A stretch of DNA of 64,000 nt from Auricularia sp. M13 (lineage: Eukaryota; Basidiomycota; Agaricomycetes; Auriculariales; Auriculariaceae): contig CM073201.1 of assembly GCA_037042915.1 (NCBI GenBank), forward strand, positions 3,224,001 through 3,288,000, in the 5' to 3' direction. Under the pieces are notes generated by a model. That model was not told the DNA's origin. It saw nothing but the letters and a program-made list of their open reading frames with translations, and searched no databases. The translations under genes and the position numbers were made by a program. This document shows positions 16,097 to 63,713 of this stretch, piece after piece; within the stretch, counting starts at the first letter, position 1, and each line of letters opens with the position of its first letter.

Positions 16097-17751
16097 TTAC
16101 AGCTCGGGGGAGAGTTCCATGTGCTCCTGGGGGGCCAGTTCCTCGTCCTCATCGCCCGCTGTGGACTGGTTATCGAGCGAGGCCTTGAGATTGTGGAGTT
16201 CAGATCGTATCGCCGCGAGTTCAAGGTTTGTTTTCTTTTCGAAGCGTCGAATGTCGGCGCGAATGTCGGTGCGGAGGCTCTGGATCTCCTGGCGAAGAGC
16301 CAACAACTCGTTCAGCGAATCGGATTGAACGTGGGAACTGGCCGCGCGTTTACGACGCTTGGGCGTGTTGCCTGTGGCGGAAGACCGCGATCGCTTTTTT
16401 CCCTTGGTGGGAGAAGCTGAGGGCGTGGTCTTCACGACATACTGGAATAGGTCAGCGGGGGTTTCGGAGGTACACGAAAAATATACTTCGTCATCGCTGT
16501 CGTCAGCGAGCTCGTCCGTTTGAAAGTCGTTGAGGTTCTTCACCTCGTCCACGAGTTCAGCCACGTCGATGACGTAGTCCTCGGATGCATCGCTGGCCTC
16601 GCCGTCGTCGTCCGCGTCGCTCGAGCTGCCGTCGTCGTTGCGAGATGCCGGAACATAGTCGCTATCGTCATCGCCGTCGTTCGCGTTGTCCAAGGGCGCC
16701 TGAGACTGCTGGGCGTCGATGAGTTGCTGAATACTGACGAGATGGTCGTCGTTTGAGTCACAGGTCTCATCGTCGTGCACCGCGTTAGTCGAGCCGCCGT
16801 CGGCCTCGTTGAGGTTGTGGCAGAGCCCGAAGCACTTCGGTTTACGGTTCAGGTGCCAGCACCCGAGACAATGGCGCTGGTCAACCCAGGTAAGGCAGGG
16901 CCGCACTTTGCGGCGCTTGTTGCCGGGCTGGTACTCGCACGTTTCACACGAAGTGAGGGACGGGAGGGCATGCCGGAAGTTGTTGCTATAGTACGTGAGA
17001 GCCGTGGTGAGAACCTCCTCGGGGATTCGCTGGAAGGAAAGTGGAAGCTGCGAGATGTCTTGTTTGAATGCGCGAGTGAGAGCAGCTGCGAGTGCAAGAG
17101 AAAGATTCCAGAAGGGCGACGTCGTATCCAAGGGACGAGTAGTGAAGGACGGTGCGATCATGTGGCGAGTGCGCTCGGCCCAATGGGTGAGAGAGCCCTT
17201 GTTCACTTGGGGGGACTGCAAGGCAGCGACGACGAGAGTGTACGCCAGGAAAGCGCGCATCATGAGGTCGTACAACTTAGCGTCGTCCTCAGAAAGAGCT
17301 GCGGGCGGCTGGAACTGCCGCGGGAGAGGTGTATAGGCAGCCAGCGCGAAACAGCAAACATATCCTTCGGCATCCAGTTCCACGTCCGGCTAACAATAAC
17401 AATAATGGTCAGCACAGTAAAGACAGCGCAGGGCGTGCATCTTACATATAGATTTGGTGGAAAGCCATCAAGACGGCCCACGCCCGGTTTGCGAACGATG
17501 CAGGCGACGCAGTTGCGATTCGCCTCCAGATGTCGTTGGAGATTGGCAACGTCGCAGCATATGAAGTCGTTCGGTAACGTCTCGCTCAACTTATACACGA
17601 AGCTGGTGTCGTAGTGGTACAGCTCGACGCTCTCGGCCGCGGTCTTGGGGATTGGAATAGGCGGCCTGCCCTTAGCAGGCGAAGGAGATTTAGGAGAAGA
17701 GGGCGCCACAGGATGCGATTTGGGCTTGCGACTGCGCGTCTGGGGCGCCAT
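16097..17751 (-). CDS. Cys-rich coiled-coil protein; free-standing homologue of the Gypsy cargo gene
   Basis: Exon 17751..17446 joins exon 17389..16097 in phase (GTAAGA...TGTTAG, 56 nt) to give 532 aa. The N-terminus is basic (MAPQTRSRKPKSHP). FICCDVANLQRHLEANRN is followed by the intron, then GYVCCFALAAYTP. A Cys module, CETCEY...CLTWVDQRHCLGCWHLN...KCFGLC (residues about 230-275), looks metal-binding. Then comes a long acidic Asp/Ser tract, a KRSRS/PKRRKR basic patch and a C-terminal coiled coil (LLALRQEIQSLRTDIRADIR). Function is unknown. The motif order and intron position are shared with the antisense gene at 56.4-57.9 kb inside the Gypsy element. Acidic and basic tracts suggest a nuclear protein. 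Confidence 0.7.
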
Positions 17752-19880: not shown

Positions 19881-19975
19881 GGAAAGAAGGCACGGGGGTT
19901 GGGTGAAGATTGCGACGCGGAGTGCATACGATTTAGATGAACAGTGACATTAAAAGGTACCTAGGCAGATTTGAA

Positions 19976-35794: not shown

Positions 35795-36287
35795 TTGAGT
35801 TCCCCGGAGTGAGCGGGGGAATCTGAGGACGGTGTGACTTTATATATTCGCGCATATGATTGACAAGCACGAGACAGATCAGGATGATGAAGAACCGTCC
35901 GCAGTGCGAGGTACTTTGCGTCATGTGCATATCGTTCAGGATCTAGATTTGCCGTATATGGGCATAATTTGCTTGATTGCAGGCTGGTTCTTCCTCGGGG
36001 AATTAGCTGCTGGCCGCGCATCCCGGAATCCCGAGTACATAAGCACAGTGTCGGCGCAGTGTCGGCCTGCTCGGCGGTGGACGATTGGATGTTGGCCATG
36101 ATCAACTCGGATGTAAATTTTGCGAACACGTTACATAGAGATCTCAGATTTTTTGTGACGAAAAGCTCCTTGCAGAGCGCGAGAGAGCACGTAGCATGGG
36201 CGGTCGAGAAAGGACACAGTTGGTGCGCGCACGGGTGGACGCCAGGGAAACAAGAGGAACACGGAGGGTAGCATACAAGCGAAAAGA

Positions 36288-36334
36288 GAACGCATGTTGC
36301 GAATGAAATGTAAGTTTTAGACGTGCTCGCTCTT
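36288..36334 (-). pseudogene. Second, shorter UGP1 exon 5 fragment
   Basis: The plus-strand sequence GAGAACGCATGTTGCGAATG, followed by ...GACGTGCTCGCTC, aligns with CAGAACGCACCTTGCGAATG...GACGTGCTCGCTC at the 3' part of UGP1 exon 5 and its donor (41349-41393). Only about 45 bp remain. As with copy 2, it sits just upstream of a family Z gene, on the opposite strand. Confidence 0.5.
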
Positions 36335-36379
36335 TCATGTTGTGAAATGTTGTGGTGACACTACATAAGTTGGCGGCGG

Positions 36380-37592: not shown

Positions 37593-38728
37593 TGTAAATC
37601 GACATATTTTTTTGGCTTCATGTAGGGTCTATTATGAGCCGCCCCGCAAGTGCAGCATTCTCCCCTTGAGTTTTTAATTGCATAACAGGGTCGAGCTGAG
37701 GTCGGCGAGTCTTCGGGGCTGGATCACATCGAAAACCTGAATGGTTCACGTGCGCGGCGCAGGCGGCTTTTACAGCGCGCCCACCGTCACTGATCATGGC
37801 ATGATCAGTTACGCACGATATGGCCGGTAGGGTGCAAACGGGGCGGAGAAAGTGGCGGAGCGGAGGTGGGCACGCATGAAGAGGAGATGAAGGGTTGAAA
37901 GAGCGCAGAGAAGCTGGGCGGACCATGAACGGGGGAGAGCGCTGGGCGAGGAACAGGACGACGGCGCATTCTGCGGGGGAGAAGAGGGCGAGAACAAGAA
38001 TAACGCGCGGGGGGAATGGTAAAGTGGAAGTAGGCGGCAGCGTGCGTGCGGCTGAGTAGTGGATGACCCAGACTACGACGGGGAGGACAGACTGCGCGGG
38101 CATCTGAAGAACTGGCGGGTGATGCGGCAAGTCTGGCGACCTCGAGCACGCGGGTCCCTTTCACCGCGTGAGATGCAAGAGGCTCTCATCCTGGCGCCTC
38201 GTTGGGCGCAGCCGACCGGATTTGAAGACGTGAGCATGCACGACGGAGCACAACCGGTGCGACCGCGTTCAGAGTCCGTCAGGGCACACTGCCCCCACAA
38301 TGCATCTTTGCACCGCTCGGCACTGTTACAGTGTGTTGGTTGGGTTAGGAGGTCAGCGCACCTGACCAGCATCGGAGCTCCGAGGATGTGATCATGAACG
38401 TTCGCCGGCGTTCGGTACCAAGTTGTTGCTGGACGTTGGCAGTAACCTGATTCCATCCTTCATCGTTTATTCGTTGGCTCCGGTAGCGGATCGATGTACA
38501 TTAGTATACACGCACAATGGTGGCGGATCAGACAGCCGGCGTGGATTCCTCAGAGTCCCCCGCAGACGCAGAATCACCTTGCGTGTCCGAAACAGTGACG
38601 TTCCCGTCGTTGGACAGTGTCCCGGTTTCAACGAGACCGTCTTGCCCAGGACGACGTCTTGCAAATGACTGCAGACGAGGACTCAAGGTTACAATCCCAC
38701 CATCAAAGTAACGAGAGAGCGCCACTTA
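37593..38728. other. Intergenic, nothing recognised
   Basis: The GC-rich purine-biased stretch at 37810-38040 has long open frames on the minus strand with low-complexity Pro/Ser/Ala composition and no motif. They are not called. No RNA gene or structured repeat seen. Confidence 0.5.
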
Positions 38729-42772: not shown

Positions 42773-43436
42773 CGTGGGTGCGGTTTTGCTAGGGGTAAGA
42801 GGGGAGTCTTGAGCAGATCGAGGAGCGAGGCCGGTTTTATGACGTGTGAGACGAGCGGAATCTTATTGCTTCCGGCTCCGGGTCTTCTTCCGCCTCCGCA
42901 CATGGCCTCGAACGTCGTCCAACACCGCCCATTGTATTATGCACGCATCACCGCAACTTCGCCTAGGACTGTCTGGAGCGCGCGAGCGCCGGTGCCCGAC
43001 TTTTCTTGCTTGCTTTTACGGTGGTTCTCAGATCAGCAGCATACGCACGTTCGTGCACTCAGTCTGTATGCGCTGGCGCGCTCTCCGACATCCCGCAATC
43101 CGCCAATGCCCGCCTTCCCCTCGCGCAAAGTCGGACATGGCTATCAGACTCATCATTCTTACCCTCATACGCGGTCTCTGGCCAGCGCACTTTCTCCGAG
43201 TCCGTTACACATGAAACGGCCGTTCTGCTAGGCCAGGACTGCCCGCGGGCCCTGTGCGCTCGAGTGAATTGATCCCACTCGTACTGTCACCCGACTCTCA
43301 GGCGAGGAATGGAAAAGAAAATCGCAGCTGCTTTCGGAATCCGGGTCCGGCGACGCCACTCAGTCTCCTGCCTCTTCTGGACGTTGTACCTACTTTGCTC
43401 GCTGCTCTGAATCACGGGCGGGCCACCTTGACCGTA
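42773..43436. repeat. UGP1 upstream region; second arm of the 34958-35180 duplication
   Basis: The first 100-200 bp upstream of the UGP1 ATG should hold its promoter. No obvious TATA box is visible. The part 43150-43345 (GTCCGTTACACATGAAACGG, then GAATTGATCCCACTCG) is the reverse complement of 35180-34958. No gene is supported. Confidence 0.5.
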
Positions 43437-44664
43437 GCGTAATTGATTAGGTGGGCTGCTGAAGCTGAACTGTCAGCGGGTGTCCGCTTTTCAGCAGGAC
43501 ACTGGCGTCGGTCCCTGGCATCCATTCAGCGCCAAGTCAAAGCACATACGGAGTGACAACGACTGCGAGGCAGGAGATTGAACGCCGGTGAACGTTACGA
43601 TTGCGTCCTCAGGGCTCCGCATGCACATCGCACCAACCTCCAACGTCGCCCTGGCGCCCTCATCACTGCGGTGCTGTCTGCGAGTCGCACACCTGAGATT
43701 GGACGCGAGACATGCGTTGGCCCACACAATTTATGCATGGACAAAGCACAGCATGGTCGGTTGCAAGGACCGACACGGTCCCGCGCGGTACGTCGTCTGC
43801 TGGCTCACTGCAGATAAGTCAGAACTGGTGGATAAAACAAGGCAGGGAGAGAGAGAGAGCAAAACCAGCCACGCACGGGACGTCGAGAACCTCGCGCTCG
43901 GGATCGGGTTCGGTCACGGTCAAGTAATCCGCGCCCGTCTGCTTGGAGAACGCGTGGTAGGGCAGCGCGACGTCGGGATCGGACACAGGGGGGGCGGCGA
44001 TGACAACGTGGGCTTTGGCGCGCCACACGCCGCCAGTAGGCGGGCGGTCGTCCGCAGCGTCGATGATGACGAGCGCGCGCGCGGTGAAGGAGAGCGTGGA
44101 GACGCGCGCGTGAGTGATGAAGAAGGTGCCGACGTCCACACACACGCAAGCATATTGGTCACGCGTGCAGTAGAAGACCAAGGGCACTCGTGCTTCTGCC
44201 GCGGCGACCAGGAGGAAGTATATCGCTCTTCGTCGGTCTGAGTATGCCAGAAATCAACACTGAGCCGTTTACAGCTTGGATTTAGGTGGGGATTTGCGCA
44301 CCGGGTCCGCGAAGGATGGTGGCCTCTGCTTGGTGGCCTCTGCTCATTGCGTACCTGAGATAGACGTCGTGCAGGTGATGCCAGATTTCGAGGTAGGTCT
44401 CCCGCACGACGATCGGGCCCTTCTGCGGGAGCCCGAAGTGGTTGGGAATGCAGATCGCGCGACGGCCGCCGTCGTCGGTCGCGAGTTCGACGCCGTTCTG
44501 AACGCCCCAGTAGCTGTTGTAGAACTCTGCAAGCCATCCGGAGGCGAGGCTTGCGTTGTGGAGCTGGTTCAGATACGCGAAATGTCTTGGGGAGACGTGC
44601 GCGGAGTCGGACATGACGATCGCGGTTCAACCGTGTCAGAGTCCGCTTCGTACTCCGCCGCCGA
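43437..44664 (-). repeat. Inverted duplication, right arm (contains Z copy 5)
   Basis: Reverse-complement partner of 36380-37592, including gene, introns and 3' flank up to the block GGTGGGCTGCTGAAGCTGAA at about 43451. Together the arms bracket a 5.8 kb centre that contains Z copy 4 and UGP1. Confidence 0.8.
43663..44614 (-). CDS. Family Z protein, copy 5 (3 exons, 272 aa)
   Basis: Exons 44614..44302, 44237..43877 and 43807..43663 join in phase, with the same intron positions as copies 2 and 3. It reads MSDSAHVSPRHFAYLNQLHN, GLPQKGPIVVRETYLEIWHH and ATILRGP, then after the intron DRRRAIYFLLVAAAEARVP and ALVIIDAADDRPP, and ends VQSQVCDSQTAPQ. Compared with copy 3 it has one extra codon in exon 1 and scattered, often third-position, changes. 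That suggests selection on the protein after duplication, though I have not counted substitutions. The walker-A-like site again lacks a lysine. Function unknown. Confidence 0.55.
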
Positions 44665-45080
44665 CAAGGGGTACACGGCCGCAGACTGATGCGAGGCTGA
44701 ACTTGGTCGGATGATTTTTCGCACAGCATGCAAGGCCATCTTAAGTTGAACCGAAGCTGAGCTCACGCTCCGCTTGAGTGCATCAAATCCGGCCCGGCTG
44801 CGGCGAGAACCTAGGCTCCGCCTGAGTCGCCACCGACGCGCAACTTGCGTTCATCCCGCCGAAGCAGCGCGCAGGCTCCGTCGTCCAGCCCGCATTACAG
44901 CTGTCCCCAACAATGTCAAGTCCAGTTCGCAGCCGCGTGCGAGTTGATTTGGCCGTGTTTGCGCCCTGGCCCACTCTTTTTCCCCAAGTCCTCGCGCTCG
45001 TGTCGCCGCCGTCGCCGTTGCAAATTGCGACCTCTGGCTGCCGCTGCTGCCGCCGCCGCCGCCCGCCAACACGCCGAGCT
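44665..45080. other. Intergenic with coding-like GC-rich stretch cut by the LTR element
   Basis: A (CCG)n/(GCC)n-rich stretch at 45003-45070 (poly-Ala or poly-Pro depending on frame) ends at the insertion point of the miniature LTR element. Its other side continues at 46581. A palindrome-like TGAGCT/AGCTCA group near 44758 has relatives near 61012. No full gene can be drawn. Confidence 0.35.
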
Positions 45081-47046: not shown

Positions 47047-47225
47047 CTCTGTGGGGAGCATTTGGCAAGTACCCCTTTCATTTCCTGATATTATATAGAT
47101 ACTTTTTTGTAACCTTGAAATATATTTTATTTTACCTTATTCACATTCTGTGTCCACTTCTGTGCAAGGAAAACAGGAGATTCAAAGAGCATCAACAAGG
47201 AGATCCCGGCTGATGCGCTGCGCGG

Positions 47226-48792
47226 TGATCGGGCAGAAATTGACACGCCGGAAAAATCGCGTCCCTTTCAAGATAAAGGCGACATAGCAAGACACAATAC
47301 AAACTCGAATACAGTACTACCACACATCCCGACAACAACGAAGACCGCAAATCAACAAGAACAGCATCCCGAAATGGAACACGCGACGCACACCGGCAAG
47401 ACCCGACATCTCTCCAGCATGGACAACTTGGCGACAACGGCTCGGCAACCACAATCCCTTCTATTGGACCTCAAGCACGACTCCCGGATTTGCCTTTCGA
47501 GACTCCCAGAGTATGCGCGAAGGACGAACGATCCGTCTCCAAGAGCAGGCGAGCATGTTCCGTGTTCGCCTCCCGAAAGTGTCCCAGCACACGACCGCGT
47601 GCTACTCCGGCAAAGACACCACGACCACGAAGGTGCGCAGTCGCCCTGGCTGCGAAGGAATATTCTCGACGCCGCTGTCTCCGGTTCCAAGGGATCACCA
47701 GCAACCGAGAACGATCCTGACTCATTCACCCAAAATCGTTATCGGCACCTGCGCATTCGCGAACACGTCACCCGCTGCGACCTCGGACCATATCCAGACC
47801 AGGGTCTAGGGCATCCTTCCTCTCTACTGTCCCTGAGCATGTGCACCCTGAGAAACCGGGGAAATGCGGAACACGAAACCCATACTAGGGGAATCCCGTC
47901 ATCGTGATCGCAGCGCACTTTCCCACGGTCTATGGCGTCATCCAAACGGCAGGGCAGGCCGCAGCACACTTGTGGACGATCGGTAGTCTTTCCTCGGAGC
48001 AAATTCTGAATCACACGCTCACGGGATTGGCCTCTCATTAGCTCCCGAGAACGGATTGCGCAACCCGCAGGCGCGCGCAGTCCGCATGTGACAATCGGGA
48101 ACTCTTCCTATCGCATGGGCATTATCGGTACAGCTCGGGACATGGTTTTGATTGGCTTGGCATTCTCCTGTATAAACGCGATAGGTAGTTAGGTAGTTTT
48201 CCCTTAGCACAGCGGCTCACGAGCATCCGGCTCACCAGTAGTTCAGTATCGCGCACTCCGGCGCCCAGTTCTCGTACTCGCACCCGTCCTCCGTTCTAGT
48301 CCGTACGCAATCGAAGTCCCAGTCACCTTCTGCCATCTCCGTTGGCCCCAAGTCCCGTTTTCCCCCTTCCCTCGGTGCGTAGTCGCGACTTCCGTGATTG
48401 CACACCATCTTCCCTCCTCTCCTACTACGACTTCTCCATCCGAACCGTGCTACTTCTGTTCGTCGCGTTCGCACGCAGTCATAGACTTCGCCAGTGCAGC
48501 GACGAAGAAAAGACGCACTCCGTCTCACAATCCTCCTCTCCCGTGCACCCTCTTCTCGTAGACGACTCCACACGAGTAGTCTCGAGCTCTCCGGATACGA
48601 ATTCGGGTTCCCCCTCGTCTTCGTGATCCTCACTCGGGTTTTGATCATACACACTCGAGACCATATCCCCGTTTCACCCCTACCTCTATATCTATTCTCT
48701 CGTGTGTTGGGTATACTCCACCCACCCACCCTTTTGATCTGCGGCTCCTCCCTACTCCTGGATTCATTGTCTTAGTCTTCCCTGGCTGTTCA
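47226..48792 (+). repeat. Gypsy 5' LTR
   Basis: Starts TGATCGGGCAGAAATTGACA and ends CCCTGGCTGTTCA. Compared with the 3' LTR it has ACCGGGGAAATG (extra G), CATTAGCTCC (A for G), TATAAACGCG (one A fewer) and CACTCCGTC (one C fewer). Confidence 0.9.
48171..48177 (+). promoter_or_regulatory. LTR TATA box candidate
   Basis: TATAAAC follows CATTCTCCTG in the 5' LTR. Its 3' LTR counterpart is TATAAAAC near 60354. The position, about 1 kb into the LTR, would place the U3/R boundary shortly after it. Confidence 0.5.
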
Positions 48793-48795
48793 AAG

Positions 48796-48812
48796 TGGTG
48801 ACCACCGCAGGG
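48796..48812 (+). other. Candidate primer-binding site
   Basis: TGGTGACCACCGCAGGG begins three bases after the LTR end and starts with TGG, complementary to the CCA end of a tRNA. The matching tRNA was not identified. Confidence 0.4.
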
Positions 48813-49225
48813 AGTCTTTGAACTAGTCTTACAAACGGTTCAGGCTCCCTGTTTATCCCTTTCACACACCCCCACCACTTACTTGCGTCGAGATTGCGAC
48901 GGCTTCACCTGGTCCTGCCGCACGAACTCGTTCTCGTGTTCGCCAAGCAACCATTCCTGTTGCCTCAACATCATCACTCACGCAAGCGAACCCCCATACA
49001 TCTACATCGGTTTCCTTACCATTTTCCCCCCCTTCTTCCCTCTCTTCTCTCACCCTCTCGGAACGAGACCCTGAGTCGGAACCCGAGTTTCATTCTTCAC
49101 GTTCGCGAGAAGATTCAGATCAAGACGTCGCACCCCGTCGTTCTCGATTTGCTTCACTTGCACCACGCACTCCATCACCTGTCAATCGCATACCTCTCGC
49201 AGAAGAACATCCGTACTTCCAAGAG

Positions 49226-50831
49226 ATGGACGATGACGGAAACCCCCCCAACCCGCCAGGCAATCCAGAAATGGAAGCGGCCTTCGGCAACCTACTGTTC
49301 ACGTTCATGCAGCGTGCAGTACAGAACCTTCCCGCTGTGCCCCCAGGCCAGCAACCTCCAGCCGCTCAACAAGCACGCGTTCCCCTCCCGTACCCAGACG
49401 AAGGGCGCGCGCGCCGATTTGACGGTGACCCATACAAAATCGGGACCTTCCTTGAGACGTTCGAAAATCGGGCGCGACTAGCCACGATTGGAGCCGACCG
49501 ATGGAAGAAGGTTGTGGTTGATTATGTCAACCGTGACACGCGCAATCAGTGGATGCAACTCGAAGAGTTCGGTGATAACTCTACCTGGGAAGAGTTTAAG
49601 GCTCAAGTGTTGCGCGCGTATCCCGAGAACGGTACCATCAAGGAGTATACGTTCGAGGAGCTGAAGGAGAAGATAGATACCTGGAAGGGACGCTGCGCTC
49701 CCCGAGGATGTCAATCGGTATACCCGAGAGTTCAACGCTTGTCAAAAGTCGTTGCAGCGTCAGGGCATCGTGCACCAAAAGCAAGAGCTCTACCTGTCGG
49801 CCTTTACAGCAGAAGAACGCGGGCGTATCGAGAGACGCCTTGAGTGGAAGTTTCCCGACCAGCACTATCACGAACTCGAGATTGATGACATCGCGGACGC
49901 GGTTCGCTTCCTGGCAAAAAACTCGATCGCTGAGATGCCGGGCGCGATTAAACTCGCGTACTCGCCGATTGCAATTAATTCGCGCGAGGTCTCAGTGTCG
50001 GTGCAGCCCCCGGCAGCCGTCAAACGCGAAGGTCCTGATGATCGCCTGATCGCGAGTGTCGCACAGCTCATCGAGGAAAAGTTGCAAGCGCGACTTGGCC
50101 CGGCTCGACCAGTGCATAATCACACGCACGCAACAGGCCCTAGCGGGTATACCGCGGGAAGATTTGGTCCTCCCCGAACGGGTGATACCACCTCCCGGAT
50201 TGGACAGGACCGTTGCCTATTCTGTGACGAATCGGGACACATGATGCGTCAATGCCCCATGCGTCAGGAATACCTGAATGCGGGAAAGATAACGGAAGAT
50301 CCATTGGGAAGGATGGTATTCCCAGGCGGACTGATGATTCCGGGTCCTCGCGAGAAGCCCATTCGCAAGCGTATTGACGAGTACTGGGAGGCTCAGGCAC
50401 GGTCGCACTACTACGATTCCGTGATGCTGTTGGACGGCGACGTTGACCCAGTCGATTACGAAGACGACCAGTTGCTCCCCGAGGAACGCGAGTACCAAGC
50501 GTTTCTTATGATGCGCGAACAAGTGCACAACTACGAGACCACTGGGCGCTTTCGACCGAGCAATAAGAAGTTCGATGGTGTAGAACTTCCGGCGCGACGC
50601 TGGGGGCCAGCCTCGCAGCAGAAGAACACGGAACGGTACCCGGAATCCTCCCGTCCCGGCAGCTGCTCGCGCCAGCACTCCCGTCAGTCAACAAGCTCCA
50701 CCTCAACGCGCACCAGAGAGGCCGGCCAATCTGCAGGTCCCAATTCCACTCGACGAGGTAGCTCGCAAACACGCCGACCTGACCAAGAAAGCCGCAGACA
50801 AGATGGAAGAAGCCGGCATGACATTTCGTAA
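49226..50831 (+). pseudogene. gag: Gypsy gag, frameshifted
   Basis: The first frame opens MDDDGNPPNPPGNPEMEAAF and carries the capsid core (RRFDGDPYKIGTFLETFENR, WKKVVVDYV, WEEFKAQVLRAYP). Near 49695 the frame shifts by one. The next frame continues DVNRYTREFNACQKSLQ and ends in the nucleocapsid zinc knuckle CLFCDESGHMMRQC (CX2CX4HX4C, at 50217-50258). After about 50620 the frame shifts again, and its residual tail is Ser/Arg-rich nonsense ending at 50831, while a second frame continues toward protease. Gag packages the element RNA. This copy could not make an uninterrupted product. Confidence 0.85.
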
Positions 50832-51542
50832 CAAGGCTCCCGCAACCGACGATTCGATGGCCGAACAACTGTTCATGCGCGTACTCGAGCTTCCAATCAC
50901 GGCAACGATTCGGGAACTGCTCGCGACTTCAGGAGACATCCGCCGCTTGGCACAGAAGTACACTACGACGAGGCGAACTCCTGTGAGCGAAGTACATATC
51001 ATCGACCAGGACGACGGCGACGACGGCGACGTCAATGACGTGTTTCAAGTTGTCGCGTGGGAGCAATCGCTGCAGTGGACGCCTTCGGGAGACTTCGCGG
51101 CGCACGAGTCACTACCGTTGATGGTCATCACCGCCGACATCGAAGGAGTCCCCATCGAGACAATCATCGACACAGGGTCGACTATCTGCTGCATGAGTGA
51201 TCGCGTATGGAGGAAGATTGGCTCACCCGTGTACTCGGAAAAGTCAACCAACATGCGCGACGCGAATGGCAACGTAGCCGGCACCTTGGGCGCGATTGTC
51301 GACCAAGAAGTCATCATCGGAGGACTCAAGTTCTTCATCACCATACACGTCGTCCCGAACGCGCCATTCAGTCTCATTCTCGGAACACCCTTCTGCGCAA
51401 TCGCCTCGATCGAAATCTCGTGCCGCCCTTCGTCGAAATGGTGCTCAAGATCACCGACCCGAATACGGACAAGACCGTGCTTATTCCCGGATCCGCCAAA
51501 CCGCCGCGCTGTCGCGTTCGCGCGCACTGTAGACTCGCCTAA
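50632..51542 (+). pseudogene. Gypsy protease region, frameshifted
   Basis: The frame carries EVARKHADLTKKAADKMEEA, then the retropepsin active site ETIIDTGSTICCMSDRVW and the flap/late strand FSLILGTPFCAIASIEI. The DTG triad and ILGxPF match Gypsy aspartic proteases. Around 51415 the frame shifts; a second frame then continues FVEMVLKITDPNTDKTVLIP to a stop at 51542. The catalytic site is intact but separated from gag and from reverse transcriptase by shifts. Confidence 0.8.
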
Positions 51543-51548
51543 GGATTT

Positions 51549-52725
51549 TTGATGCGGAGAGAACGCGCCTCTCCGTTCCGCAATATACAACCCCTGTTCT
51601 TCTATGATCGTCTTGTGGGCGTTTCGCAAGATGTTCGCGAAAGGTTCAAGGACCCTGTCATCCTTGCGATGTTTGGGTTCATGCTGCTAATGTCACTTCC
51701 CAAAGAGTTAGTTCCCGCTTGGGTTCGCGCTCTTGTTCTCGGGATTGCGGCAGGACACGCGGGTACCTTGGTTCTTCAGCAGCCGGAGACAGCTGCGAGG
51801 ATAGAAGAAGTTGTGGAGGACAAAAACCCTCGGCGACGTCGACGGTCGCGCAGAGGTCGCAAGAGAGGTAAAGCAAGTGTACTAACCACCCCGACCAATG
51901 ATGACCCCTCTGAGGGAGGGGATGGTGTACAAGAAGCTTATCCCGACGAGCGACTTCTCGAGAACCGACTCCGGTATCTCTACGGCTTTGGATTCACGGA
52001 ACAAAACGGCAATGGAAACGGGACGGCCCAAACAATGCTCATAGAGGATCTGCCTAACCCGGAAACGGAAGGCAAATCGGACGATCAGCCTCAAGATCAG
52101 CAACACGCAATTACGATGACATCCACGACCATTCCGATTGAGGTCTACACGCTCGATTCGGACAATCGGTTTGCGCAGCCGAGACCATACATCTTTCTCC
52201 TCAATGAAGATGGCACCCGAGTCGTCCCGCAAACGGAAGAAGACACGTGGGAACGCGACGAAGACTTCGCTATGACGGTAACACTGACGATCGGCGACGA
52301 CGCGCACTTCGCAATGCCTCCACGACCAGTCAAAACGGTACCGCCGCTACAATTGTCACGTGACGCGCGCAACTTTCGGCACCCGCAAGCTATTCCCATG
52401 GGCGTCAGCGAACTCGAGTTTCCGTCACGCAAACCGGCTGGCATTGACACTGGCATCTTCGCGACTGTCTTTAACGTGATGGAACGGAGACAGCCGAAGG
52501 GCGAAGACAAACAGCGACCCGGGAACGCGGCAGGACTCGGACGGAGGCCCTACAAGTCCGCGTTACTCAAGGTACACCCGCAGAACGCTCCGATGCCAGA
52601 GGAATACCGGATAGTACGACGACGACCGTCTGATCCGCTGATGACCTTGCCAGTAATCGGCGCCAAACCCGCGGATTTCGTGCCCACGGCATATGTGACG
52701 ACGGAACGAATGGCCGGCATCAAGA
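51549..52725 (+). pseudogene. Pol linker with hydrophobic segments and Arg-rich patch
   Basis: Start of a 582-codon open frame (to 53297) that becomes reverse transcriptase. Before the RT part, about residues 36-80 contain two hydrophobic stretches (VILAMFGFMLLMSLPKELV and WVRALVLGIAAGHAGTLVL), followed by a basic patch (RRRRRSRRGRKRGK) and an acidic, low-complexity region. Such membrane-like segments are unusual between Gypsy protease and RT. They may be a family-specific domain. No known domain recognised. Confidence 0.5.
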
Positions 52726-54215
52726 TTGAGGACTCTGCGCATTTGTGGGACGAGGAAAAGAAGCTGTTCAAAGCTATCGTCGCTGCCAATGAAACCGCGT
52801 TTGCATGGACAGAGGCGGAACGAGGTCGCTTTCGATCAGACTACTTCCCGCCTGTCAAACTCGCCGTGCTTCCGCATGTGCCATGGACCAAACGTCATGT
52901 GCCGATACCACCCTCTATTCGCGACAGTCTCATCGAGCTGTTAAAGGAGAAGATCAAAGCCGGCGTATATGAAGAGTGCAACTCCTCGTATCGCAACAGT
53001 TGGTTCTGCGTCGTGAAGAAAGATGGCAAGAGTCTTCGCATAGTGCATGATTTGCAGCCGCTTAACGAGCATACCATTCGGGATGCGGGTCTCATTCCCC
53101 AGCCTGATGAGTTCTCGGAAGAGTGCGCGGGATTCACGCTATTGTCGGTACTCGACCTATTCTCATCTTACGACCAGCAACTGATTGATGAGGCTTACCG
53201 TGACCTGACGGCGTTTCAAACACCTGTCGGGTACTACGGAATGTTGGATTGCCAATGGGGTACACGAACTCAGTTCCCATTCAGCAAGCAAACGTAACCT
53301 TCATCCTGCTCGACGAGATTCCGCGATTCGCGAACTGCTTTATCGACGCGTTGTCGGGAAAGGCTCGCGGTCGTACTACAAAAACGACAGACGGACGTAC
53401 CAGACGCATCCGGACAACCCGGGAATACGGCATTACGTATGGGAACACGCGATGACGCTAAACCGGATCCTTCATCGTTTGAAGAAGGCGGGTGCTTCCG
53501 TTTCGGGAAAGAAGGCAATCATTGCACAGCCTGAGGCAGTCATTGTGGGGTATCGTTGCAACTTCGAAGGGAGACATCCTGAGAAGGGAAACGTCAAGAA
53601 GATACTCGACTGGCCGACGCCGCAGAATGTGACACATGTGCGCGCTTTTCTTGGGACGTGTGGCGTATCGAAACTCTGGATCAAAGACTTCGCGCGTGAG
53701 GCTCGGCCGCTGTACCAGCTCACAAAGAAGGACGCAGAGTTCGAGTGGACTCCCGAGTGCGATGCAGCGATGCAGCGGCACAAGAAGTTGGTCACGGAAG
53801 CCCCAGGACTCAAGCCGATTGACTACGCGTCATACAACGATGTCATACTCGCAGTCGACTCGTCCGTCATTGGTGTTGGCTACATTCTGCTACAACTAGG
53901 CGACGACAAGAAGCGGTACCCATCGCGGTATGGATCCATCACGTGGAACGATCGCGAAAGTCGATATTCGCAGGCGAAACTCGAACTACATGGGCTGTTT
54001 CGATCATTAAGGGCTGTGCGCGCATACATTTATGGCGTACACTCCTTGGTGGTAGAAGTCGACGCGAAGTACATCAAGGGAATGCTCAACAACCCGGACA
54101 TGCAGCCCAACGCGACTATCAACCGTTGGATTGCGGGCGTTTTGTTGTTCAACCCGAGAATAGTGCATGTCCCTGCGACGAAACACACGGGAGCGGACGG
54201 ACTTTCACGAAGACC
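52726..54215 (+). pseudogene. pol: Gypsy reverse transcriptase and RNase H, frameshifted
   Basis: RT motifs in order are FPPVKLAVLPHVPWTKRHVP, CNSSYRNSWFCVVKKDGKSL, RIVHDLQPLNEHTIRDAGLI, LDLFSSYDQQLIDEAYRDLT and (after a shift near 53250) MGYTNSVPIQQANVTFILLD. The catalytic FxDD motif is altered: the frame reads CFIDALSG, so the second Asp is missing, and another shift follows near 53365. After 53452 the frame is open again with ILHRLKKAGASVSGKK, FLGTCGVSKLWIKDFAR and the RNase H core VILAVDSSVIGVGYILL, SRYSQAKLELHGLF and VEVDAKYIKGMLNNPDMQ, KHTGADGLSRR. Identity as Gypsy RT-RNase H is clear. It cannot be active as read. Confidence 0.85.
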
Positions 54216-56114
54216 GGCAGCACCTGAAGACGAGGACGAGCCCGACGATGCAGACGAGTGGTTGGACAAGGCTTTGGGATTTGCGATAGAACTCGAAAAC
54301 GCGCGAAGACCCGTCTTCGATCACATGTTTGAGAGCACTCCGCGACTCGCAAAGGCGTTGGGAATTCAGCTCAACGTGCCCCAGCGGCCACGTCATCAAC
54401 AGGAAGTCTTCATTTTCGACGTATACGCGACGCTGCGTAGTGGTGCGAGGACGCAACCATCCAAAGTACCCCGCGGAGAGGAGTCAGACTCCGACAAAAA
54501 CGCGCGCGAAAACGACGAAAATGAAGATTCTGGTGACGAATCCGTCTCAGGCGAGGAGGACGAACAAGAGCAGCAAGAAGGACGTCCCGCAAGTCCCGAA
54601 CGCGAAAAGGAGCAATCGCAAGAGCCAATGCAAGAGGCGAACGCGGAAACTCGAATTTGGGAAATAGCAACAGAACCCGAAGGAGAAGTCAAGATTCCTA
54701 GAGGCGCAAAAGGACGACGACGCGACAAAGAGCTACCGACCATCTTCAAGTTCCTACAGTCGGGCGACCGCGACCCGAATATGCCGCGCGACAAGTTTCA
54801 CGCGTTGGTACGCAAGGCATCTCATTATTTCGTACTTGGCGACGTACTCTACCGGCGAAGCGAAGACGGAAGGCACAAGGCAGTGGTATTCGACAACGAC
54901 AAGCGACTAGAGAAGATGAAGCTCGCGCACGACGAACTTGGGCACAAAGGATACTTTCCGGTTCGCGCACACGTGCGAACGGTATTTCTGGCACGATATG
55001 GACACGGACATTCGCTGGTATCTACGCACTTGTCATCAGTGCCAGATTCGCCAATTGGGGCACCAGCGGATTCCGCAAAGCGGTGCCATTCGCATACCCG
55101 CCTATTCTTCAAGTGTCACATTGACGTGATGCTCATGTCGGTAATGTCCGAAGGCAAGAAGGCGTTGGTGCAGGGCAGATGCGCGACAGCCAGCTTCCCG
55201 GAATGGAGAGCTCTCGCGAAAGTGACTGGCGTCACTCTCGGGCGATTCATTTTCGAAGAGATACTTTGCCGCTGGGGAGTTCGCAGAAATCGCTACCGAT
55301 AACGGCGCGGACGTCGTAAAGGCAGTCGATTATCTCAGTGAGAAACACGGGATCCGTCATATTCGCATATCGGCGTACAATTCGCGAGCAAATGGCATAG
55401 TCGAGCGCAAGCACTTTGATGTGCGCGAATCACTCATGAAGGCGTGTGGTACCGAACCACAGAAGTGGGCCTCTAAGGCACACTCAGTCTTCTGGGCGGA
55501 ACGCGTGACGGTAAAGAAGCACCTCGGAATGTCACCGTATCGAATGGTACATGGATGCGAGCCCGTGCTCCCTCTCGATTTCGAACAGGCGACCTGGCTT
55601 GTCCCGCCAATGCAACCCCCGATGACAACGGAGGAGCTTATTGCAACACGGGCGCGTCAGCTGGAGAAACGAGACGAGGACATTGCTGCGATGAGGGAAC
55701 GAGTGCGGCAGTTCCGCGCAAAAGCGGCTGAGCGTATGCTCAAGAGCTATCACGGACTCAAAGCACCGGACAACATTGCGCCAGGCACGCTCGTACTGGT
55801 CAAGAACTCGAGAATCGAACTAGAGCACAATCGGAAACCAACACCGAGATGGCTAGGGCCGTTTATTGTGCTCAGGAGACATTCGGGAGGATCATACATT
55901 TGTGCGGAACTCGACTCTGCAGTAATTGTGGATCGAATTGCGGCAGCACGTGTACGCCTCTATCACGCTCGTGCAAATGTGCGTTACAACGTCAAGCAAA
56001 TCGTGGAGAATACGCCGCAATACGTTTGGGAGCGGGCTTAACGCGCCGCAACCAGTCGACGACGAAGAAGATGAAACCGAGCTCGACGCCGACCACGGGA
56101 CCAACGACAATTAA
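54216..56114 (+). pseudogene. pol: Gypsy integrase, frameshifted, with C-terminal domain
   Basis: An acidic Glu/Asp/Gln linker precedes the integrase. The HHCC zinc domain spans two frames: HDELGHKGYFPVRAH in one, then CERYFWHDMDTD and LRTCHQCQIRQLGHQ in another (shift near 54965). The catalytic D,D(35)E triad is visible as HIDVMLM, ATDNGAD and NGIVERKH, again with shifts near 55080 and 55280. The last open frame (55421-56041) holds the C-terminal domain, with LVKNSRIELEHNRKPTPRWLGPFIVL, the G/D-x-W-LGP pattern of Gypsy integrases. A short acidic tail to 56114 lies in a neighbouring frame. I see no chromodomain. Confidence 0.8.
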
Positions 56115-56383: not shown

Positions 56384-57944
56384 TCAAGAAGCCTTGCTCA
56401 TCGGACGCGAGGGCACCTTCGGGGTCGCCAAGGGGGCGAGCTCGTCGACGAGCTCTCCTTCGGCATCAGCCTCAGTGCCGGCGGCGATGGCGCTCCCCGC
56501 GCGAGCCGCGTGGATTTCCTTCATTTCCTGCGCGAACCCGGGCAGGGTGGCACGGATCTCCGACAAGTCGAGTTTGAGGGCCTTGAGGCGCGTCGAGTGT
56601 TCCGTGAGGAACGCGAAGGGCATCATGAGAGCGTTGACGAGCTCCTCGTCGCGCTTGAAGAAGTGCTTGAGCAGCAACTCGAAGTCGAGGTAGCCTGTGT
56701 TGCGCGCGATGTTCTCCTGAGACGAGGGCGACACCCTGTACGGCACGAACTTCTCGTCGCGCAGGAATGGCGGCGCGAGGATGTCGGGCTTGAAGTCCGA
56801 GTCCGTCTTCGTGCGCTTGCGGGGAGAGAGCGTGGACGAACCCGCGATCGGCGACGAGTCGCGCTTTCGCTTCTGCAACACGTGATCAGTGGGATATCGA
56901 GGCGCGGGAAAGTCGAGGACGAACCGAGGCGCTCTCGACGTACTCGTCACCGTCCTCGGGCTCCGGCGTGGGCGTGTGCTCGGCCTCCTCGTCGCAGAGC
57001 GTGAAGCAGACGCGCTTCGAACCGTGGCTGCGCCAGCAGGCGTAGCAGGCCTTCGTGTCCGCCCACTGGAGGCAGTTGCGCCACTGGAAGTTGGGCGCGA
57101 CTTGAGAGCGACTCTCCCCTAAGCCGCGGCACCACTCGCAGAGGAAGGCGGACATGATGGTCGTCGACGTGTGCGGGTAGAACGAGAGCATGAGGAGCTT
57201 CTTCTCCTCGGGGAACTGGCGCAGCGGGGAAGGCATCTCGTCGAGCTCGACGCCGAGGCTACCGTACAGCGAGCGGATCGTAAGCAGCGCGTTGCGGTGC
57301 GCAGAGCCGAAATCGAAAGTGTACGCCCCGAGATCGAGGAGACGAGTCGCTTGCCGCTTCCAGTGATTGTAGGCGCGAGCGGGACGAGGGCCCTGGTCGT
57401 TGTGGCAAGCGCCGGCCGCGAACTTGTATGCCAGAAAGAGGCGCGCAAGGAAGATAAAGGCGGGCGGTGCTCCTCGTCGAGCTCCTCGTAGCACTCGGAG
57501 GGGATGACGCAGTACGCGGCCAACATGAAGCAACACACGGGTTCCGAGTCGTCGTCGTAGCCAGCGATCTGCGAGACCGTCAGCATAAACGCGCGCTTCC
57601 AATATCGTACCACGTACCGGGAAGTGGGAGAGAATCTCATGCTCGTTCTTGCCGGTGCGAATGGCCGTGAGGAATAGCACGAACTTGTTGGCGTCAAGGA
57701 GAGCGTCGCGGCGCGGCTGGTCGCCGTGGCAGCAGACGAAGGACGAAGGAAGCGAAGAGTCCAACACGGGCGGGTCGTCAGGAGCGTTCCAGTATTCAGC
57801 AAGGGCCGCGAGATCCACGGGCACGGGCTCCTCCACGGGCGGAGGCGGTGGCTCCACAGCAGCGCGCGACGACCACCAGCCTTGGCCTTGGCCTTGCCCT
57901 TGCTGTTCTTCGGGGTCCGTCTTACGAGAGCGGCGGCTGGACAT
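56384..57944 (-). pseudogene. Antisense cargo gene B: Cys-rich coiled-coil protein, one frameshift
   Basis: Minus-strand coding between pol and the 3' LTR. Exon 1 starts MSSRRSRKTDPEEQQGQGQG and has SFVCCHGDQPRRDALLDANK. A 49-nt intron (GTACGT...CGCAG) follows HFP, then GYDDDSEPVCCFMLAAYCVI. A one-base loss near 57465 shifts the frame before LARLFLAYKFAAGACH. Next comes the Cys module CEWCRG...CLQWADTKACYACWRS...RVCFTLC, a second intron (GTTCGT...TTGCAG) and KRKRDSSPIAG with a helical C-terminus (FKRDEELVNALMMPFAFL). Motif order and first-intron position match the gene at 16097-17751. Without the single frameshift it would be about 500 aa. Function unknown. Confidence 0.65.
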
Positions 57945-58315
57945 GAGGGAAAACGCAATGAGAGCAATGCGGGACAGGAACCAACTTATATCCTCAGACA
58001 GGGGGTATTCAGTTCTAGCCCTTCACAAACGACTTGGACGAATTCGGGGACGGTCAGTACGGTTTGCCGTGCAACGGCAGCCTCAGAACAAGCAGCCTGC
58101 GGTCCCGAATGTTCCACGCAACGAGTACCATTCACCCGAGTCAACTTCAGCAAACTCAACTCGCGACAAACACGTGGCGGTGCAAGAAATCAATGCTATT
58201 CCGCGGGAACACTTCCAAGAACATGTCAACTGTCAAACAACTCGACCCTGAGGCGCCGGCGCCGCGTTACTCCGGACGGCCGAACATCGGGACACTGGAC
58301 CGCCACGCACTCGGA

Positions 58316-59283
58316 TCAGCAATCAAGTCGCGAATACGAAGACGGAACGCACTCAAAAGTCAAGGCCTCGAAAGCGTCAGCGTGTTCACCAGTGGCGTAC
58401 AGGCCGCCGTTAATGTTCTGACGCGAAAGAACGTCGTGGACGATCTCGGCACGGATGTCTTCAGGGATGAAGCCGTCAGTACGGGAGAAGGTCGCGAAGC
58501 GGAACGGGTTCCGTTCATCAAGCGCCCCATATTCCCAAAGGCTAGCGGTAGCTGTCGGGATTTCGGTGGTGAACGGCTTGATAACGTTGAACATGGCCAT
58601 GAGACCCGCATACGAGGAAGGACGAACGGAGCGGAAGTCGCGGCGACGTTCGCGTGGATGCGCTCGAGTACCTGATACTGCGTTCCAACGAACTTGGCGT
58701 ATTCGCGATAGATGCGCGAGTCCGGCGTAATGGGCAAGAATCAGAAGCGTGTTCTGCGCGGGCGTTCAGCCTCTTCAAACACTATTCCGAATGCGGCGAC
58801 TCACGGAGATTGCGGGCCAGTGCGAGATGAAGAACCCGACTTCATCGGCGTGCGCTTGGTCGGGAGCGCTCACAAGGCGCCCGAGCTGCGTACCGATATC
58901 CTGAGCAACGGTGGCATAGAAGTCAAACGCAAGGACAGTAAACTGTCCCGGGTAGACCTTTGCGGGTTCCGGCATCTCGGGAGTCGGGGCGTTTGGATCG
59001 AAGTACGTCGAGAGACCAGCCAAGGCAGGGTTCCATCCAAGGGCCATTGAGTCTTGAGATGCGAGCGTCTGGATAACTTTGGCGGCCGTCTTGGTGATGC
59101 TATCGAGGGCGCGATAATTCTCGGACACCGCGCGCGAGATGGCCGCGAGCTGAGCATGTTGCGTGGCGATAGCCGTCGATTTCGCGATGACGCTCAACAG
59201 CGCGACGGGCGAGCGTGGGCAAGCGACAGGAACGTCGGGAAGACGTAGACCTGAGAGAGGGAGGTATTGACGAAAGACTGCAT
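58316..59283 (-). CDS. Antisense cargo gene Y: uncharacterised protein with introns
   Basis: A minus-strand gene whose 5' end lies about 125 bp from the 3' LTR. A candidate start is ATG at 59283 (MQSFVNTSLSQ), but its link to the main frame is unresolved. The main frame reads VALLSVIAKSTAIATQHAQL, YFDPNAPTPEMPEPAKVYPG and FFISHWPAIS, then a clear donor GTGAGT and acceptor CGCGCAG near 58770-58822. Later coding (ITPDSRIYREYAKFVGTQYQ, then FNVIKPFTTEIPTATASLWE and GFIPEDIRAEIVHDVLS) spans two frames, so one more intron or a frameshift is present. I recognise no family. Opposite orientation to gag-pol would keep its introns from being spliced out of the element RNA. Confidence 0.4.
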
Positions 59284-59409
59284 GATGAATGCGGGTTGGA
59301 GGACACGACTTAGCATTCCGAGGACCTTTTATGGCGACGCGATTTTGCGGGTCCCTGATGCTTCGCAATTTGATGCACAGGGACGTGCACATTCAAAGTA
59401 CCCCGCGGA

Positions 59410-60977
59410 TGATCGGGCAGAAATTGACACGCCGGAAAAATCGCGTCCCTTTCAAGATAAAGGCGACATAGCAAGACACAATACAAACTCGAATACAGTA
59501 CTACCACACATCCCGACAACAACGAAGACCGCAAATCAACAAGAACAGCATCCCGAAATGGAACACGCGACGCACACCGGCAAGACCCGACATCTCTCCA
59601 GCATGGACAACTTGGCGACAACGGCTCGGCAACCACAATCCCTTCTATTGGACCTCAAGCACGACTCCCGGATTTGCCTTTCGAGACTCCCAGAGTATGC
59701 GCGAAGGACGAACGATCCGTCTCCAAGAGCAGGCGAGCATGTTCCGTGTTCGCCTCCCGAAAGTGTCCCAGCACACGACCGCGTGCTACTCCGGCAAAGA
59801 CACCACGACCACGAAGGTGCGCAGTCGCCCTGGCTGCGAAGGAATATTCTCGACGCCGCTGTCTCCGGTTCCAAGGGATCACCAGCAACCGAGAACGATC
59901 CTGACTCATTCACCCAAAATCGTTATCGGCACCTGCGCATTCGCGAACACGTCACCCGCTGCGACCTCGGACCATATCCAGACCAGGGTCTAGGGCATCC
60001 TTCCTCTCTACTGTCCCTGAGCATGTGCACCCTGAGAAACCGGGAAATGCGGAACACGAAACCCATACTAGGGGAATCCCGTCATCGTGATCGCAGCGCA
60101 CTTTCCCACGGTCTATGGCGTCATCCAAACGGCAGGGCAGGCCGCAGCACACTTGTGGACGATCGGTAGTCTTTCCTCGGAGCAAATTCTGAATCACACG
60201 CTCACGGGATTGGCCTCTCATTGGCTCCCGAGAACGGATTGCGCAACCCGCAGGCGCGCGCAGTCCGCATGTGACAATCGGGAACTCTTCCTATCGCATG
60301 GGCATTATCGGTACAGCTCGGGACATGGTTTTGATTGGCTTGGCATTCTCCTGTATAAAACGCGATAGGTAGTTAGGTAGTTTTCCCTTAGCACAGCGGC
60401 TCACGAGCATCCGGCTCACCAGTAGTTCAGTATCGCGCACTCCGGCGCCCAGTTCTCGTACTCGCACCCGTCCTCCGTTCTAGTCCGTACGCAATCGAAG
60501 TCCCAGTCACCTTCTGCCATCTCCGTTGGCCCCAAGTCCCGTTTTCCCCCTTCCCTCGGTGCGTAGTCGCGACTTCCGTGATTGCACACCATCTTCCCTC
60601 CTCTCCTACTACGACTTCTCCATCCGAACCGTGCTACTTCTGTTCGTCGCGTTCGCACGCAGTCATAGACTTCGCCAGTGCAGCGACGAAGAAAAGACGC
60701 ACTCCCGTCTCACAATCCTCCTCTCCCGTGCACCCTCTTCTCGTAGACGACTCCACACGAGTAGTCTCGAGCTCTCCGGATACGAATTCGGGTTCCCCCT
60801 CGTCTTCGTGATCCTCACTCGGGTTTTGATCATACACACTCGAGACCATATCCCCGTTTCACCCCTACCTCTATATCTATTCTCTCGTGTGTTGGGTATA
60901 CTCCACCCACCCACCCTTTTGATCTGCGGCTCCTCCCTACTCCTGGATTCATTGTCTTAGTCTTCCCTGGCTGTTCA
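59410..60977 (+). repeat. Gypsy 3' LTR
   Basis: 1568 bp and more than 99.5% like the 5' LTR by eye. The bases before it (CAAAGTACCCCGCGGA) are a poor polypurine tract. Confidence 0.9.
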
Positions 60978-61380
60978 GCGGTCCGGCCGGCGGTGGCGGT
61001 GCACGCTCAAGCTGAGCTTGAGCTGGCGCTGAAGCCAGGTTGGAAACCGGCCAAGTCGGTTCCGCTGCCGCAGCACATAAATCACTCACGCTTGAGCGCA
61101 AACCTAGGCTCCGCACAGAATCCCCGCATCCGGCAATCTGGCATCATTTCTCAAGCTGAGCTTGTGCTCGGTCCGCGGCGGTGTATGCAAAAACAAAAGT
61201 CTCATACCGACTCCCAGGATTCCATTTCAGACATTTTGCCCCCCTCCCCCTCTCCCCTTCTAGAAAAGGAAAAACCGGCTTATGTAACACCGGCGTATTG
61301 CCATCCGCTGGACCCCGGTTGGAAGTGTAGAAAGGCCCCCGGCTTATGCCATCTGAGCCTTCATCCAGGAAGCTGCCCAT
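60978..61380. other. Intergenic, nothing recognised
   Basis: Contains CTCAAGCTGAGCTTGAG, a short palindrome at about 61008-61024, and a pyrimidine-rich tract near 61240. No gene. Confidence 0.4.
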
Positions 61381-61917: not shown

Positions 61918-63713
61918 GTCGTGAGCTCCGCCGCTCCGGTTCTTGACCATCGCGACGAGCTTGGGAGCAAGATCCAGCTCACACTTGAGGACTGGGACAC
62001 CTTACGCGAGATCGAAGATCTCCTCGGAGTGCGTGCTAGCAATAACCGGTTGCATCACTAAATTCCTCTAGATCTTTCCGGATGTGACTGTACATGTCAC
62101 AGTCTGAGCAGCCCACGCTGCCATGGGTGCTCCCCATGTACAGTGGGGAAACTTGAGAATGCCGGTCGATAAAATCGCATATACCACGGAATCTACTGAA
62201 TAGAGGACTATGGTGTATATATGAGACTTGTAGCTCTCGAGGAGCTCTATCAGGTGGTATATGATTACTGGCCAAAGGGTGCAATCCGGGGGTGAGAGAG
62301 AGGATCCGATGAAGAGGTCGAAAATCACATCGCCAGAAACGCGTCCTCCAGATCATTTGAGGTTGGCCTCTTATTCTATACGTAATTCTGAGGTGGGTTT
62401 ACCATTTGAGTCAAAGTGGTTGGATATCCAATTCTGGAGCTAGTGCACCTGCAATTTCTGCTTGCTCAACCTCTCAAACAGCCAATGGCCTACCTAACTG
62501 CATTTCCCTGAACCAAGACATGCTCTAGAGTACATTATATGTAGTTTTAGGCTGTGAGAAGGAGTTTTTGACCCTTGGTTGGCCATCAAGGTCATTCAAT
62601 TCCCGGATATAGAAATCATGGAATCCAGGTTAATTGAGGAATTGCTCCAGAATGGGATATCCAACCACCTTGACTCAAATAATAAACCCACCTCAGAATT
62701 ACGTATAGAATAAGAGGCCAACCTCAAATGATCTGGAGGACGCGTTTCTGGCGATGTGATTTTCGACCTCTTCATCGGATCCTCTCTCTCACCCCCGGAT
62801 TGCACCCTTTGGCCAGTAATCATATACCACCTGATAGAGCTCCTCGAGAGCTACAAGTCTCATATATACACCATAGTCCTCTATTCAGTAGATTCCGTGG
62901 TATATGCGATTTTATCGACCGGCATTCTCAAGTTTCCCCACTGTATACGTTGATGAAGGAGGAGCTGGAGAAGCGCATTTTGAATGCAGAGCTTTCCGAC
63001 AAGCTTCGAATGGCTGCGCGCGCAGGTCTTGTGAAGCTGACGCATTACTTTGAGCTTGCAAAGCGGTGCCAGTACAACTGGCTTGCTACGAGTGAGCTTC
63101 ATTCCTATGATCTCAATCTCGATCACTAACAATTGAGGACGGTAGTGCTCCACCCGGCGCTTCGGAACTGGTGCGAGCTGCATGGGATGGGCAACAAAGG
63201 GCGTGAGACACTATTCCACGTGTTTCAGACGTATCGCGAGCAGTACGCGGCTGAGCCCGCGGCGTCTACCGCAGTTATTGTCGCTACACCAAAACACAGT
63301 CTTCTTGGACGTGTCATGGGCAGTGCGACGACCGTCCCAGCCGTTGCAGCTCAGCCTGCAGTCAGTGAGACAGTCCGCTACTTGCAGGGCTTCGACGCGG
63401 GCTTCGCTCTCGGCGACAACGCACACACATGGTGGAAGGTATGCAGCTGTGTCGTGTATCGTAATCTACTTCTAATATCGATATTCAGAAGAACCAGCGA
63501 GACCTTCCGGTGATGGCACGCATGGCACGCGATTTCCTCGCCATTACGGCCTCTAGCGTGTCTGTGGAAAGATTATTCTCTGACTCGGGCGATCTCTCAA
63601 CAAAAAAAACGCGCATCTCTCGCAGCGGACACCATCCGCGAGCACATGTGCACGAAGCATTGGATCCGCGATGGTCTGATGAAGCGCTTGTCGTAGACTT
63701 ATTACAGGCGTGA
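61918..63713 (+). pseudogene. hAT-family transposase, 3' half, interrupted by a MITE
   Basis: Coding pieces in order are LDHRDELGSKIQLTLEDWDT, then SEQPTLPWVLPMY (a frameshift lies between, near 62099); the MITE; TLMKEELEKRILNAELSDKL and LVKLTHYFELAKRCQYNWLA; intron 1 (GTGAGC...CTAAC...TTGAG, about 63091-63136); HPALRNWCELHGMGNKGRET; WWK, then intron 2 (GTATGC...ATTCAG, 63439-63488) and the dimerisation domain NQRDLPVMARMARDFLAI, SSVSVERLFSDSGDLS. These are hallmarks of hAT transposases of fungi. Just after, an A8 run at 63601-63608 has one A too many: skipping it restores an ending MCTKHWIRDGL with a stop at 63696. The 5' half of the gene was not found upstream. Confidence 0.85.
62141..62943. 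mobile_element. Tc1/mariner-type MITE, 803 bp, arms of about 300 bp, TA target
   Basis: The element begins CAGTGGGGAAACTTGAGAAT at 62141 and ends with its inverse complement, CAAGTTTCCCCACTG, at 62943. It is flanked by TA on both sides (62139-62140, 62944-62945). The CAGTGGG tips and TA duplication fit the IS630/Tc1/mariner class. The arms (62141-62440 and 62645-62943) are inverted copies of about 300 bp with roughly 95% identity, and the 200-bp centre has no transposase. Removing it and one TA joins CCCATG to TATACG and restores the hAT reading PMYTLMKEEL, proving insertion into the hAT gene. A transcript across it would fold into a long hairpin. Confidence 0.9.

Follow-up and report, generated by a model that had tools for sequence, protein, structure and literature searches.

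Retroviruses and LTR elements can transduce genomic genes in the sense orientation, and capture in that orientation loses introns. Genes in the opposite orientation have been described in several plant Gypsy lineages, in which Grande (gene23), RIRE2 and Retand (with TRP28) carry antisense open reading frames between pol and the 3' LTR (PMC7264820, PMC11963269), as the original prediction for the present locus had noted for some plant lineages. The main texts of these two papers place such frames in most copies of a family, give their function as unknown and assign Grande gene23 a promoter of its own (PMC7264820, PMC11963269); the second reports a nuclear location for the Grande product (PMC11963269), and the word intron is absent from both main texts. 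For the retrovirus HTLV-1, the account in PMC1459196 has the antisense HBZ transcripts begin in the 3' LTR and undergo splicing.

The family described here resembles the plant elements in that its extra genes are antisense, lie between pol and the 3' LTR and occur in most family copies. It differs from them in its probably fungal host and in carrying two genes (A and B) with three introns, one gene and one intron of which are homologous to genomic genes; a Pfam search found the TRP28 domain of the Retand lineage in neither A nor B. The likeness to HBZ lies in antisense orientation and, for A and B, in predicted splicing, and no sequence kinship is claimed. As in sense transduction, a genomic gene resides on an LTR element, but here the introns are kept. 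Searches of the open-licence literature listed no Gypsy element from a fungus whose antisense genes contain introns, which does not prove absence from print; as far as that literature shows, the gene pair, its three retained introns, the intron in common with genomic relatives and the setting are new. We consider it very probable that this is a Ty3/Gypsy family in which two antisense, intron-bearing accessory genes form a fixed part of the body, their introns passing intact through RNA.

The window is a stretch of 64,000 nucleotides (G000:C9:3224001-3288000), and the genome searched comprises 52.1 Mb in 14 contigs. Intron size and gene style suggest that the host is a fungus, probably a basidiomycete. 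Within the window lies a 13.8-kb Ty3/Gypsy element whose two LTRs (47226-48792 and 59410-60977) are 99.7% identical, begin with TG and finish with CA, with the target duplication GCGG on either flank:

47222..47225, no strand: left target-site duplication GCGG, from flank comparison
47226..48792, plus strand: 5' LTR, TG..CA, from LTR pair alignment
49226..50831, plus strand: gag-like region, not confined to a single frame in the window copy; zf-CCHC match below threshold (E 0.017) near 50214-50258
50803..51552, plus strand: aspartyl protease portion of pol (PF13975, E 1.2e-10)
51549..56041, plus strand: remainder of pol (reverse transcriptase, RNase H, presumed integrase), split over several frames in the window copy
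59410..60977, plus strand: 3' LTR, from LTR pair alignment
60978..60981, no strand: right target-site duplication GCGG, from flank comparison

The paired TG..CA LTRs and the short target duplication mark this as a Ty3/Gypsy LTR retrotransposon, and its pol follows the order protease, reverse transcriptase, RNase H, with the reverse transcriptase recognised between the other two by a weak match in a broken frame (E 0.081). RNase H matches PF17919 above the cut-off (E 5.9e-18; 53746-54042, sense strand). Among the roughly 150 best matches listed from a genome-wide integrase search, none falls in the window; a sister element has an integrase match at C12:200623, a place flanked on either side by pol sequence that aligns with the window. 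In a scan for the primer tRNA, the acceptor predicted by the sequence that follows the 5' LTR gave two pattern matches, versus four for the control, and no tRNA was called at either of the two places. By eye, no purine run precedes the 3' LTR at 59380-59409. With a clear primer site absent from 48793-48830 and a polypurine tract from 59380-59409, priming of this element may be unusual.

Between pol and the 3' LTR, two minus-strand genes occupy 56384-59283, exactly where such a pair had been proposed to lie inside an element with GCGG-flanked LTRs:

56384..57944, minus strand: gene A in three exons, which in open copies would splice to 487-488 aa, with a cysteine-rich region; window copy frameshifted
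57569..57617, minus strand: intron A1, 49 nt in the window, GTACGT..CTGAC..CAG; matches the genomic homologues read in place and phase
56873..56924, minus strand: intron A2, 52 nt in the window, GTTCGT..CTGAT..CAG
58316..59283, minus strand: gene B in two exons, which in open copies would splice to 302-306 aa; window copy frameshifted
58754..58804, minus strand: intron B, 51 nt in the window, GTGAGT..CAG, with a branch-like CTGAAC
57985..57990, minus strand: TATAAG box 5' of gene A, at -46 in the window copy; candidate promoter element
59325..59332, minus strand: ATAAAAGG box 5' of gene B, at -49 in the window copy; candidate promoter element

Eleven of the 14 loci that hold these genes were aligned, the alignment omitting C7a (insertion), C11 (internal deletion) and an old fragment on C7 (truncation). 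That antisense genes on this element keep GT-AG introns, as had been predicted, holds throughout: A1 (47 or 49 nt), A2 (52 or 53 nt) and B (50 or 51 nt) are found in all 11 copies. With the introns removed and nothing else altered, gene A is open in 5/11 copies, gene B in 6/11 and both together in 2/11. Since the introns are present in every aligned copy, since exons join in frame in these open copies, and since the place and phase of A1 are common to three genomic homologues, the sequences indicate that the three introns are more than chance. Both candidate promoter boxes stand no more than 60 bases ahead of the gene start in all 11 copies. Neither gene has a Pfam domain match, and searches of PHROGs and of PDB sequences gave nothing convincing for either; a PHROGs match for A (E 0.62) and PDB matches for B (E 0.34 and above) were dropped as weak. 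No homologue of gene A was found in the viral contigs scanned. A scan for promoters of sigma-70 type and for terminators, a type of scan unsuited to this genome, gave nothing above shuffled sequence. Indels of 1-2 nt are frequent among the 11 copies, which are otherwise 98-99% identical, and perhaps reflect sequencing error.

The original prediction held that the element moves the two genes as cargo, and set against this a DNA insertion that had landed in a single integrated element. A search with region 58000-59300 gave 14 matches in the genome, 13 of them 98-100% identical across 1299 or more of the 1301 bases and the fourteenth a 92% fragment from an old partial copy; together the loci are spread over nine contigs. 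Those with a pol match of at least 94% are the very 14 that hold the cargo, at the same internal position, and the other 16 pol matches listed are relatives at 64-84%; the pol and cargo counts are lower bounds drawn from the best-scoring candidates, and additional LTR matches, solo or fragmentary, exist. No locus with family-level pol and without cargo occurs among the at least 14 found.

Target duplications were counted in nine of the 13 near-complete copies, leaving out C7a (interrupted), the tandem pair C6a/C6b and C10a. All nine, which are simply structured, have a matching 4-bp duplication of their own, with differing flanks (GCGG twice, GCGC five times, CCGC and CCGT). Because the LTR pairs of the 11 elements compared differ by just 0-3 mismatches and 0-6 gap columns per ~1567, their near-identity indicates recent insertions; the cargo of the copies diverges from that of the window by 1-2%. 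Both genes belong to the element, since 14 of 14 pol loci hold the cargo in the same place and nine of nine simple copies carry their own duplications, the very check that had been set beforehand. A later insertion of DNA into one integrated element, with genes that the element does not carry, is thus excluded for practical purposes: nothing favours it beyond the caution voiced earlier, it needs cargo-free family copies, of which there are none among the at least 14 pol loci, and both the cargo and its internal position are common to 13 near-complete copies and one old partial copy, which are spread over nine contigs, with separate target duplications.

Some details of these copies stand on their own. 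The duplications of the nine counted copies fit (G or C)CG(N), a strong site preference. At G000:C6:2438766-2467651 (L016, L017, L024, L025), two element copies lie in tandem with one LTR in common. At G000:C10:828116-844116 (L008, L009), a full LTR is followed by an apparent right flank and then by an element whose 5' LTR end is reduced to its last 42 matched bases; the left side of this copy, C10a, is rearranged, and its outer flanks read GCGA on both sides.

Outside the family, the sister element at C12:199720 shows 70% amino-acid identity to the window element over 253 pol residues and 51% over a later 249, and the similarity stops where pol stops. Right after its pol comes a sense ORF of ~250 aa (L039:2573-3325, plus strand), 3' of which we saw by eye a nested non-LTR reverse-transcriptase frame. 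The antisense pair is absent directly after pol in this one sister element, of which 7.5 kb were read, a stretch in which no 3' LTR was found.

Conceivably the antisense region serves as an antisense RNA or a spacer and its reading frames are incidental. Frames are indeed broken in many copies, and the text of PMC7264820 discusses antisense RNA roles for other retroelements. We nevertheless regard such an explanation as quite improbable, since exons join in frame, A is homologous to genomic proteins and replacement changes are avoided in the gene frames. Across the 11 copies, gene A has 33 synonymous and 28 replacement variants (pN/pS 0.37, binomial p 1.3e-4) and gene B 15 of each (pN/pS 0.46, p 0.047); these tests take variants as independent, and common ancestry makes their p values generous. 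The open pol frame has 92 synonymous and 105 replacement or stop variants (5 stops; pN/pS 0.49). Four of the five other frames of gene A give 1.27-2.41, and the opposite-strand frame with common third positions gives 0.44 with 9 stops; for gene B, the other frames give 0.96-2.46 and the corresponding opposite-strand frame 0.59 with 14 stops.

The older copy at C7:2324605, with an LTR 92% identical and gene A 10% diverged, tells the same for A. Over 314 codons, counted in the collinear part of the alignment away from the deletion junction, there are 41 synonymous and 44 replacement differences (pN/pS 0.43, p 1.5e-4); the other frames give 1.16-2.61, and the opposite-strand frame with common third positions 0.46 with 7 stops. 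Its gene A has no exon indels and a single indel in intron A2, which keeps the donor GTATGT, a branch-like CTAAT and the acceptor CAG. These counts indicate that changes in gene A avoid amino-acid replacement, and the signal of constraint on gene B is marginal. Variable sites number 61/1467 in A exons, 29/908 in B exons, 11/153 in introns and 24/382 in the intergenic stretch between A and B. Among the 11 young copies, gap columns amount to 18/1467 in A exons, 10/908 in B exons and 4/153 in introns; small indels are thus not clearly rarer in exons than elsewhere, by decay or sequencing error.

A homologous gene outside the element, as capture of a host gene calls for, is present for A at 17 loci, with 23-32% identity and E values from 3e-14 to 6e-4. 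Gene B has none in this genome, its best outside match having an E value of 0.37. One stand-alone homologue of A lies in the window itself:

16097..17751, minus strand: gene-A homologue outside the element, 532 aa when spliced; canonical intron 17445-17390 at the homologous site, and TATATAAAG upstream

A phase-0 intron lies 10 codons ahead of a conserved [VI]CCF in gene A and in the three of the 17 homologues that were read (window, L037, L038). The window and L037 homologues are 94% identical across 2.1 kb and so count as one lineage, with L038 as the second. Residues conserved in the family include CC, CCF.LAAY and a CxxC..CL..D..C..C..CF..C set, and this conserved cysteine set looks like a metal-binding region. 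Element gene A and the genomic family are alike in the cysteine-rich region and in the place and phase of the intron, and the window and L037 genes also have a TATA-like box, as element gene A does. The genomic genes differ in lacking a recognised arrangement of pol followed by an antisense gene, in an overall identity to element A of 24% and, for the window and L037 genes, in that intron A2 was not seen.

The intron common in place and phase to all three homologues read makes an intron-bearing gene of the genome the most likely source of A, the transfer probably having run from gene to element. The reverse history, in which A and B are long-standing accessory genes like the plant frames and the genomic homologues are element remnants or domesticated descendants, with no host capture, strikes us as unlikely, if less so than the spacer explanation. 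Near-duplicates on different contigs, as is usual for mobile sequences, occur among the 17 homologues (the window homologue has DNA matches at C6:684380, 94%, and C2:4265094, 78%), several score nearly equally, and gene B has no outside relative, all of which would suit such remnants. Set against this are identities to A of just 23-32%, the same intron in the three homologues read and, among the roughly 150 matches listed in each case, no RNase H within 10 kb of any of the 17 and an integrase match within 10 kb on the same strand at only one.

The simplest explanation is that A was taken in antisense orientation from a genomic gene with introns and then spread with the element. On the full-length sense RNA, the introns are present as reverse complements that are not spliceable as such; this antisense placement accounts for their survival through reverse transcription, every new insertion regaining a spliceable minus-strand gene. 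A may have been acquired when transcription read through an oppositely oriented gene and the template was then switched in the interval from pol to the 3' LTR, or a DNA insertion may have brought it in and afterwards become fixed. Expression could start from the TATA-like candidate promoters of the genes or from the 3' LTR.

The products may act in the nucleus in favour of the element, for example in regulation or in escape from silencing. The gene A product combines its cysteine-rich region with a basic KRKR stretch, and from this stretch, together with the report in PMC11963269 that the product of the plant element Grande is nuclear, our tentative best guess is that it helps to regulate or protect the element within the nucleus. 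We lean, by a modest degree, towards the broader reading that this fungal Gypsy family is a carrier of self-contained, intron-bearing host genes, in which antisense orientation would shield introns and promoters and selection would have preserved the function of one or more captured genes through many transposition cycles. The family offers a natural, multi-copy case of a retrotransposon that passes intron-containing genes via RNA with introns kept, and relatives of gene A in the genome still show the ancestral intron. It becomes possible to test whether retroelements can, by capturing genes in antisense, move them in a regulated and spliceable state, and which role such genes play for the element.

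Elsewhere in the window, a neighbouring frame matches UTP-glucose-1-phosphate uridylyltransferases, and an inverted repeat at 62139-62945 has 302 nt that are 99% complementary, with arms 203 nt apart. Repeated stretches with 80-90% identity on both strands lie at 33418-37593 and 43166-44665, and related repeats at 376-1669, 14653-15411 and 18733-19887 have further matches clustered on C6, C3, C1, C10 and C12.
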